Origin: Gammaproteobacteria bacterium HGW-Gammaproteobacteria-3
GTDB taxonomy: Bacteria; Pseudomonadota; Gammaproteobacteria; Methylococcales; Methylomonadaceae
Length of the DNA: 50,427 bases
Assembly (NCBI GenBank): GCA_002843155.1
Contig: PGZD01000011.1
Location: forward strand, 1-50,427
Direction: 5' to 3'
Shown: positions 2,688-4,407 of the stretch, in pieces
Layout: each line of letters starts with the position of its first letter
Position numbering within the stretch: position 1 is the first letter of the stretch
Position numbers and translations under genes: made by a program
The notes under the pieces: model-generated
Seen by the model: the letters and a program-made list of their open reading frames with translations, nothing else
Database searches by the model: none
Told to the model about the DNA's origin: nothing

Positions 2688-3515
2688 ATGGATTGGATAC
2701 TGGCTTTAAAAGCCTTAATTTTGGGAATTGTTGAAGGATTGACTGAATTTTTGCCAATATCAAGCACCGGGCATTTAATTCTGACGGCGGATTTGCTGGG
2801 TTTCAATGGCGGTACCAGCAAAGTGTTTTTAATCGTCATTCAGACCGGCGCTATTTTGGCTATTTGCTGGGAGTATCACATCAAAATAGCGGCCATTATC
2901 GCCGGTTTGTTTAAACGGGATGCGGCGGCGCTGAAGTTCACCGTGAACCTGATGATTGCCTTCATGCCTCTGGCCTTTCTGGGACTGTTGTTCGGCAGCT
3001 TGATCAAGACCTATTTATTCAAGCCGATTCCGGTGGCTCTGGCCTTTATTGTGGGCGGCATCATCATTTTCTGGGCGGAGAAGCGGGATCATCGCATCCG
3101 CATTCATGTTGTTGAAGAATTGACCCGGCTCGACGCGTTAAAGCTCGGGTTTGCCCAGGCTCTGGCCTTGATTCCCGGCACTTCGCGTTCCGGTTCAACG
3201 ATTATCGGCGGCCTGCTGTTTGGCCTGTCGCGCAAGGCCGCGACTGAATTTTCCTTTTTTCTGGCGATACCGACGCTGATTATTGCTAGTTTGTATGATT
3301 TGTACAAACATTGGGCCTTATTGCATAACGCCGACTTGCCGCTTTTCGGCGTCGGGCTTCTGGCCGCGTTTTTCAGCGCCTTGTTGGCCGTGCGCGCGCT
3401 ATTGCGCTATATCAGTCATCACGACTTTACCGTTTTTGCTTGGTATCGCATCGTGTTCGGATTGCTGGTGATCGTTACAGCTTATGGCGGCTGGGTTAAA
3501 TGGACGGTTGATTAA
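2688..3515 (+). CDS. uppP: Undecaprenyl-diphosphatase (UppP/BacA)
   Basis: This integral membrane enzyme dephosphorylates undecaprenyl diphosphate to recycle the lipid carrier for peptidoglycan and other envelope polymers; its over-supply gives bacitracin resistance. At 275 residues it has the usual size. Motif 1 (EGLTEFLPISSTGH, about residues 16-29) and motif 2 (PGTSRSGSTI, about 164-173) are intact, with multiple hydrophobic helices between. An AAGAGGA ribosome site precedes the ATG, 9 bases after truD. The gene is convergent with smrB. A MITE begins 8 bases beyond its stop without altering the protein. Confidence 0.96.
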   Translation: MDWILALKALILGIVEGLTEFLPISSTGHLILTADLLGFNGGTSKVFLIVIQTGAILAICWEYHIKIAAIIAGLFKRDAAALKFTVNLMIAFMPLAFLGLLFGSLIKTYLFKPIPVALAFIVGGIIIFWAEKRDHRIRIHVVEELTRLDALKLGFAQALALIPGTSRSGSTIIGGLLFGLSRKAATEFSFFLAIPTLIIASLYDLYKHWALLHNADLPLFGVGLLAAFFSALLAVRALLRYISHHDFTVFAWYRIVFGLLVIVTAYGGWVKWTVD

Positions 3516-3644
3516 GAATATTTGTAACTATTCAACCCGTTGATTAAGCTTTTCATACGCAGGCCGGAAAGGCGAGCGCTTACGGCAAAAAGGCTGGAGA
3601 TCCGAGTTACGACTGGTAAAAAGGGATCGAAGGCGGCGCTAAGT

Positions 3645-3670
3645 GTGTAGGAGCCCGATTCATCGGGCGA
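3645..3670. repeat. REP-like palindromic repeat, copy 1
   Basis: The copy reads GTGTAGGAG followed by GCCCGATTCATCGGGC, which folds as a 6-bp stem (GCCCGA/TCGGGC) with a TTCA loop. The GTAGG-plus-palindrome layout resembles extragenic REP elements of gammaproteobacteria. A second direct copy lies at 3804-3828 in the same MITE. Confidence 0.6.
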
Positions 3671-3768
3671 CGGGCGCGGAGGGGATTTTAGCGCGCCCAA
3701 ACCTTGAGGCATAGACCGGTCGCTACGCTTAACAACCAACCGGGTTTTGAGGTTTTGTCTTCGTTTAT

Positions 3769-3788
3769 CGCTTAGGTAAACCTAAGCG
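3769..3788. repeat. Perfect 8-bp hairpin inside the MITE
   Basis: CGCTTAGG and CCTAAGCG form an uninterrupted 8-bp stem around a TAAA loop. It is followed by the small palindrome GCGCCTACGGCGC. There is no T-run, so a rho-independent terminator is not indicated. Confidence 0.55.
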
Positions 3789-3803
3789 CCTACGGCGCGC
3801 AAG

Positions 3804-3828
3804 GTGTAGGGGCCGATTCATCGGGCGA
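3804..3828. repeat. REP-like palindromic repeat, copy 2
   Basis: This is a direct repeat of the 3645-3670 copy with one base missing in the left arm: GTGTAGGGG then GCCGATTCATCGGGC. It lies 3 bases inside the right terminal repeat of the MITE. Confidence 0.6.
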
Positions 3829-3837
3829 ACAGAATAG

Positions 3838-4407
3838 TTACGAATATTTTTCACTGTCGTCACTGTATTTATCAGATAACCGCAGTAACACCCAAACCGC
3901 TCCGGCGCCGCCTTTTTTGGGCGGCGTGGAGCAGAAAGCCTGCACGTCGCGGTGTTGCCGAAGCCATAAGTTAAGATTGTTTTTCAGCACCGGCAGACCT
4001 TCCTGCGAACGGTAACCTTTACCGTGGACGATACAGACGCAGCGACAGCCGTCCTCGACGCAATCGCGTAAAAACAGCAATAGCTGGTGCTTGGCTTCAT
4101 GACTGTTCAAGCCGTGTAAATCAATTTCAGCGTCCAGGCCGTAGTAGCCCCGACGCAGTTTTTTCAGGACGTTTTTTTGCAGGCCCGAACCGATAAAGTA
4201 CAAGGTGTCTTCAAGGCTCAGCGTTTCATCGACAAAAATGGACGCATCGAGCGCCTGCTCGGTATCGGTGTCATGCCGAAGCCTCGGCGCAGCTACAGGG
4301 TTGCGCGGTTTTTTTAAGAGCACCGTATCGCTTTTAACGGGACGGACTTTACCGACCGATTGCCGGAACAGCTCGCGCTCTTCTTGAGATAAGTTTTTTT
4401 TTCGCAC
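3838..4407 (-). CDS. smrB: Smr-domain endonuclease, SmrB-like
   Basis: The Smr domain occupies the C-terminal half, with DLHGLNSHEA (about residues 96-105) and the VHGKG block near 128, both typical of the family. The N-terminus (SQEERELFRQSVG, then Lys/Arg-rich) and the KKLRRG motif before DLHG match E. coli SmrB (about 183 residues; here 189). SmrB acts on collided ribosomes by cutting mRNA between them, so a role in translation quality control is likely. The gene is divergent from surE, with 75 bases between them. Its TAA stop lies in the right end of the MITE; without the insertion the frame would also end at once, in TCT-TAA, so the product is unchanged. Confidence 0.85.
   Translation of the reverse strand: MRKKNLSQEERELFRQSVGKVRPVKSDTVLLKKPRNPVAAPRLRHDTDTEQALDASIFVDETLSLEDTLYFIGSGLQKNVLKKLRRGYYGLDAEIDLHGLNSHEAKHQLLLFLRDCVEDGCRCVCIVHGKGYRSQEGLPVLKNNLNLWLRQHRDVQAFCSTPPKKGGAGAVWVLLRLSDKYSDDSEKYS

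Follow-up and report, generated by a model that had tools for sequence, protein, structure and literature searches.

The locus studied here raises the question of how a short stretch of DNA that appears to hold no gene came to lie between two convergent genes, uppP and smrB, and what kind of enzyme placed it there. The window, by which we mean the whole stretch analysed, is 50,427 nucleotides long. We propose, with considerable confidence and on the basis of sequence comparison, that the 318-bp stretch is a non-autonomous type II MITE of a TnpC-only IS66-family transposon, with a hairpin interior that changes separately from the ends. The features on which the argument draws are the following.

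62 to 1408, + strand: IS66-family TnpC, an open frame of 448 aa, N-terminal part not recovered; the contig begins just upstream
1473 to 1482, - strand: right end of this IS66 copy, GTAATTACTC, agreeing with GTAACTATTCAGC at 11 of 13 positions
2688 to 3515, + strand: uppP (BacA family, PF02673), stop TAA at 3513 to 3515
3516 to 3523, no strand: left copy of the 8-bp target duplication GAATATTT
3524 to 3841, no strand: predicted MITE, non-coding, 318 bp, with 11 of 12 bases of the family end GTAACTATTCAG on each side
3524 to 3533, + strand: left terminal inverted repeat GTAACTATTC
3645 to 3670, + strand: REP-like unit GTGTAGGAGCCCGATTCATCGGGCGA, with a GTAG tag within
3804 to 3828, + strand: second REP-like unit, oriented as the first, ending a block of about 158 bp that is missing from the 160-bp copy L002
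3832 to 3841, - strand: right terminal inverted repeat, reading GAATAGTTAC on the + strand
3838 to 4407, - strand: smrB-like gene (Smr domain, PF01713), stop TAA at 3838 to 3840, inside the element
3842 to 3849, no strand: right copy of GAATATTT

A preliminary description of this DNA had reported a gene-free element of 318 bp with perfect 10-bp ends, an 8-bp direct flank and internal REP-like palindromes, and each of these points was upheld. The element occupies 3524-3841 and is flanked by GAATATTT; neither this flank nor GTAACTATTC nor GAATAGTTAC has further occurrences on the + strand of the window. The longest open reading frame lying mostly inside it is 75 aa (frames of at least 60 aa were considered), and an Rfam search with the 318 bp gave no matches up to an E value of 1. 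Being short, lacking a transposase gene and having perfect 10-bp inverted ends, it has the usual marks of a MITE. The palindromes are two units that start at 3645 and 3804 and have the properties of GTAG REPs, namely the tag, a short imperfect palindrome and many copies; the REP part of the element used as a query had matches on many contigs. Among full-length relatives, L002 (160 bp) is the nearest to the window copy, which aligns with it over the full length save for a single block, about 158 bp long, that has a REP-like unit at its boundary. By this alignment, the window copy appears to be the 160-bp type enlarged by a REP-bounded block. Folded as DNA, the element is moderately better than shuffles (z -2.24, with 3 of 100 shuffles equal or better). 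A role as a terminator is unsupported, there being 1 terminator-like site where 0.8 are expected. Plasmid records searched with the window element, and with the element of genome G271 that is described below, gave no matches.

The preliminary description also placed the insertion in the overlap of the uppP and smrB stop codons, with neither protein altered. Joining the flanks on a single GAATATTT gives GATTAAGAATATTT, and this reconstruction bears the claim out: the SmrB C-terminus reads ...SEKYS and the stop codons of the two genes overlap. When the element is present, SmrB also ends in ...EKYS; the TAA is contributed by the GTAAC of the element and the final serine is encoded by TCG instead of TCT. 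The SmrB protein is unchanged because the element supplies a TAA at the same residue.

Relatives in which these stop codons overlap and nothing is inserted, which had been named as a check, do exist. We located uppP in 116 of 121 genomes of the family, and 30 loci were returned, the window among them. Within the stretch covered by each locus, a convergent smrB lies alongside uppP in 8 of the 29 others, and none was found beside uppP in the remaining 21. The two genes overlap by TTAA, without an insertion, in four species that all belong to genus g29 (L374, L377, L379, and L381), where UppP identity is 79-83%. The gap is 1 bp in L387 and 54-66 bp in three loci of genus g6 (L375, L376, and L378), which is shorter than the element. 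Among named loci, Methylobacter marinus A45 (L088) has the overlap and L089 and L090 have gaps of 63 and 66 bp; these three may be the same genomes as L374, L376, and L378. The reconstructed empty state is thus a real state of the junction, in one other genus, and we infer that the overlap was also the state before insertion in the lineage of the window. The closest named relatives by UppP (81-83%) are Methylobacter marinus A45 and MAGs named Methylomicrobium and Methylicorpusculum. They point to Methylococcales, which we take to be the methanotroph order concerned. The element would have landed in the probable TTAA overlap of uppP and smrB, and the insertion would have been tolerated because the GTAAC end supplied a new stop. 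Two more general rules were considered and dropped. A rule that stop codons are targeted fails because, by crude calls of open reading frames of at least 90 aa, the window copy is the sole one among 20 elements of its genome that reaches into a neighbouring stop. A preference for convergent genes fails as well, since the same crude calls place the 20 elements between 2 convergent, 4 divergent, and 10 tandem gene pairs, with 4 undetermined.

The genome from which the window comes is a draft of 3.13 Mb in 135 contigs. It holds the 12-bp end GTAACTATTCAG exactly 34 times, compared with 0 times for the reversed control; 21 of these 12-mers are within paired elements and 13 are outside. Pairing of ends listed 26 candidates, from which 21 elements of 92-318 bp were kept. 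Of the five dropped, L021 spans 44 bp and has a duplication with six mismatches, and the other four are alternatives with one end in common with an element that was kept. An 8-bp duplication with at most one mismatch flanks 19 of the 21 elements and is perfect in 15; the exceptions are L042 (2 mismatches) and L073 (5 mismatches). We then applied a uniform rule, which excludes L023 and L072 for too many end mismatches despite their perfect duplications. By this rule 82 insertions have an 8-bp duplication; they are spread over 11 genomes, that of the window contributing 17, and come from loci chosen for holding the end motif, with G036 sampled rather than covered whole. When the right flank was shifted by 1 to 25 bases, at nine offsets, the count fell to 0-2. 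A further 12 insertions with a duplication came from 17 additional G036 loci and 15 from 30 overlapping G271 loci. The duplications vary in sequence from site to site, and the 63 perfect ones are 74% A+T compared with 55% in the flanks. Copies with the same ends and different 8-bp duplications had been proposed as a check, and these data supply them. The multicopy ends, the duplications that vary between sites, and the element-free overlapping uppP-smrB junctions of relatives together support the MITE reading.

To see how widely the ends occur, we counted the 12-mer in other genomes. Of 61 genomes from the order, 15 have at least four copies, 14 of these being among the 37 of the family (that of the window included), and so do 16 of 274 genomes sampled across the class (that of the window and G010 included); reversed controls gave 0-2 per genome; outside the family, these are counts of ends alone except in G271. 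The latter, a genome of the same class, has 360 exact 12-bp ends in 2.4 Mb (loci L333-L362). The 15 insertions read there are versions of one element of 152-156 bp with 8-bp duplications, which looks like a very large MITE expansion.

The ends also connect the element to IS66. The right end of the IS66 copy in the window, GTAATTACTC on the reverse strand at 1473-1482, matches the end of the element at 8 of 10 positions, as first noted, and at 11 of 13 when the comparison is extended to GTAATTACTCAGC. A closer link is provided by L208 of genome G010, a 1676-bp IS66 element with exact GTAACTATTCAG ends and the duplication TAATTGTT on both sides. It encodes a single 555-codon frame over nearly its whole length, which matches IS66 transposase in Pfam and NCBIfam. 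Classical IS66 elements have tnpA, tnpB, and tnpC; L208 has one frame and no room for tnpA and tnpB, a gene content that we take to be that of the TnpC-only ISBst12 branch. Both the ends and the length of the duplication are thus common to the family and to an IS66 element, the window copy having 11 of 12 bases at each end. In G005 and G031, contig breaks fall inside close relatives of the L208 IS, next to exact ends, as is expected for a multicopy IS. A second IS66 branch has GTAACTACTC ends and 8-bp duplications (L209, L216, and L205, with the frame broken in L205). A third branch, that of the TnpC at 62-1408 of the window, has the exact 12-mer in L081, a decayed copy in the same genome, and among relatives in L406 and at one end of L407.

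The window element resembles the TnpC-only branch in its ends, which begin with GTAA, and in its 8-bp duplication, and L208 adds an IS66 DDE transposase. It differs in having no protein and in that its homology to intact IS66 is restricted to the ends. Two other MITEs, L023 and L032, have a subterminal stretch, TTTTATGGGG, in common with L078, an IS66 remnant of the same genome, and may be plain deletion derivatives of IS66. In the remaining MITEs, the window copy included, the part shared with IS66 was seen at the ends only, and L208 has ACCCCC immediately inside its ends, unlike many MITEs.

It could be argued that a transposase family other than IS66 that also makes 8-bp duplications is the mover, and that IS66 is merely similar at its ends. 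Intact IS66 elements with exact ends are scarce enough to lend this idea some weight. In the genome of the window the copies seen with exact ends are decayed. All ten relatives searched have IS66 matches, yet their 30 IS66 loci, viewed with 1.5 kb flanks so that some ends may be missed, include only four distinct elements with such ends and a duplication, and one of the four has the GTAACTATTC end. G015 has 125 exact ends, yet one IS66 match, a fragment. By contrast, a complete IS66 shares both the 12-bp ends and the duplication length with the family, and the same IS66 ends recur at the contig breaks of two further genomes. We consider a mover outside IS66 highly improbable. Among plasmid records searched with the IS, 2 had weak matches, in both cases annotated as IS66. 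Since a complete TnpC-only IS66 in a relative and IS66 remnants in the genome of the window have these ends too, an IS66 transposase is likely to be the mobiliser, although not necessarily that of the copy at the left edge of the window. The idea that an IS66 relative moves the element is thus supported, both by L208 and by several decayed IS66 with the same ends. The comparison with the resident copy stands as regards the match at 8 of 10 positions, but not as regards the best-matching source, since other IS66 agree with the family end at 12 of 12 positions. The TnpC at 62-1408 is a possible source of transposase rather than the best-matching one.

In the mechanism that we propose, TnpC would bind the ends of about 12 bp and act in trans, moving whatever sits between them, and insertion would leave an A+T-rich duplication of 8 bp. 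The interior would be a separate layer, where hairpin repeats enter, expand or delete inside the element and where at least one dyad seems to bear a short duplication of its own. One set of ends would in this way come to hold many different cores.

A different origin for the window element would be as a REP/BIME cluster that a RAYT (Y1) transposase has spread, with the matching ends being merely part of the repeat. The two REP-like units with GTAG inside the element fit this, as do six Y1_Tnp matches in the same genome. A similarity search with the window element initially listed 44 matches; of the 29 other loci examined for nearby ends, 13 have pieces like it with no end-like sequence within 400 bp. 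However, cores of unlike sequence, as well as an IS66 gene, are enclosed by the same ends, which stand at the edge of an 8-bp duplication; Y1 transposases are not known to make such duplications. In addition, ends and duplication seem to occur without a REP-like core in L032, where the interior resembles an IS66 remnant, and in L254 of G033. Spread by RAYT thus seems very unlikely to us, and we retain the IS66-derived MITE as the probable identity of the element.

The interiors of the 82 insertions, which all lie between ends of this one kind, fall into about 16 clusters, of which 11 have at least two members, by a rough BLAST rule under which five clusters are single, cluster 0 is held together by partial matches and clusters 10 and 13 seemingly share a repeat. 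The core types are REP-like units and other dyads. Compared with shuffles of the same composition, cluster representatives fold better (z -1.9 to -10.6); these shuffles preserve base composition only, and those used for the window element (z -2.24) were stricter. One cluster combines a copy from the genome of the window with six from G014, which belongs to another genus. Hairpins of the GTGGGAGCGACGCCCACGTCGCGA type in L052 (G000:C75) and in L237-L240 (G014) are very alike by eye across two genera, which might reflect recent transfer. The cores of cluster 5, with a repeat of the CCCTCACCC / GGAGAGGG type, are found between the same ends in three genera (L227 518-686, L181 1501-1655, and two G027 copies).

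Because G010 and G036 belong to one genus, the same insertion sites could be compared in both. We looked up 13 G010 sites in G036 and found 10 occupied by an element with the same kind of ends. The flanking 8-mers are kept on both sides at nine of these; at L281 only the left 8-mer is kept and the right end has decayed by one base. Despite the kept ends, the core differs at 8 of the 10 shared sites, and the length is equal in both sisters at L278 and L282. Lengths of 158 bp in G010 correspond to 227 bp in G036 at L188, L288, and L297 and to 71 bp at L284 and L291. The other differences are 146 bp compared with 74 bp at L299, 144 bp compared with about 390 bp at L281, and 354 bp compared with 1121 bp at L290, where the G036 version has a group II intron domain (RF00029). 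This domain lies at 1139-1207 of L403, which has no listed frame of more than 120 codons. Other sequence occupies the G036 site of L292 and L295, the site of L302 was not found in G036, and a search with ten joined flanks gave no clean empty site between the two genomes.

The 69-bp difference between the 158-bp and 227-bp forms consists of a 65-bp hairpin, CCCAGCACCTAAAT...ATTTAGGTGCTGGG, and a 4-bp TTCA repeat. Five G036 copies read carry the hairpin at the same internal place, four in identical form and one, L364, in a divergent form. A script found the hairpin at five distinct places, and at three of these it stands outside MITEs, with a similar flanking sequence. It looks like a second small mobile element. 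Positions of the hairpin are L363 1380-1444, L364 1671-1735, and L299 186-250, and versions of it are present in the genome of the window (L010 1558).

The differing cores at shared sites may instead be old differences that were lost again or were homogenised by recombination, rather than secondary insertions, and we give this reading a little less than an even chance. That four of five 227-bp G036 copies have the identical hairpin at the same position is as would be seen under gene conversion, and the 71-bp and 74-bp forms resemble deletions within palindromes. Against recombination, the hairpin is bounded by the 4-bp TTCA repeat, which is single in the shorter copies, a divergent version exists in L364, and the hairpin recurs outside elements with similar flanks. 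Secondary insertion, gene conversion, and loss are not fully separable at the shared sites. The view that IS66 ends are a general chassis, which carries and multiplies unrelated hairpins in many Methylococcales genera and, judging from end counts and G271, elsewhere in the class, appears to us to be evenly balanced between true and false. Hairpins would then be swapped, gained, and lost inside resident copies, giving two non-autonomous layers on one vehicle.

As a comparison, several described elements have some of these properties. QMITE2 of Coxiella burnetii is a MITE of 150-190 bp with direct repeats of 7-11 nt; it has a GTAG REP inside, is a target for another element and is found mainly in 3' untranslated and intergenic regions (PMC5896051). 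The resemblance lies in the short MITE with direct repeats, in the REP inside it and in its being itself targeted, but from the accessible part of that paper QMITE2 has one core family, whereas here the same ends enclose many cores. The text of PMC5896051 does not use the term IS66. TIMEs are Tn3-derived miniature elements of four classes whose ends, as here, are conserved while the cores are less so (PMC4133298); in the portion available they differ in having 38-bp ends of Tn3 type and 5-bp duplications. BOX elements of pneumococcus are likewise modular and their length varies between strains through the middle modules, but that middle is made of box modules and IS66 ends are lacking in the part of the source available (PMC3049150). 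Chunjie of Geobacter uraniireducens shares conserved ends, direct repeats, and variable length, and differs in that hairpin exchange is not described in section 6 of the 2024 review (PMC10969869), from which the term IS66 is absent. The literature searched, which lies outside ISfinder and most subscription papers and is weak evidence in this respect, yielded papers on other elements and no IS66-derived MITE, and the matches listed in a search for the end sequence looked unrelated. As far as these sources go, REP-holding MITEs, MITEs with conserved ends and variable cores, and modular elements are already in print.

This analysis adds the tie to IS66 through exact ends, the spread through a family and part of a class, and the change of cores under constant ends. 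The window element is a clear case of insertion at overlapping stop codons in which both proteins stay intact thanks to a stop carried by the element, and the G010 and G036 pair lets core change be followed at fixed insertion sites. Together, these data connect a large group of repeats between genes, undescribed as far as the literature searched goes, with one transposase group, and they suggest a route by which REP-like hairpins may ride on the mobility of another element.
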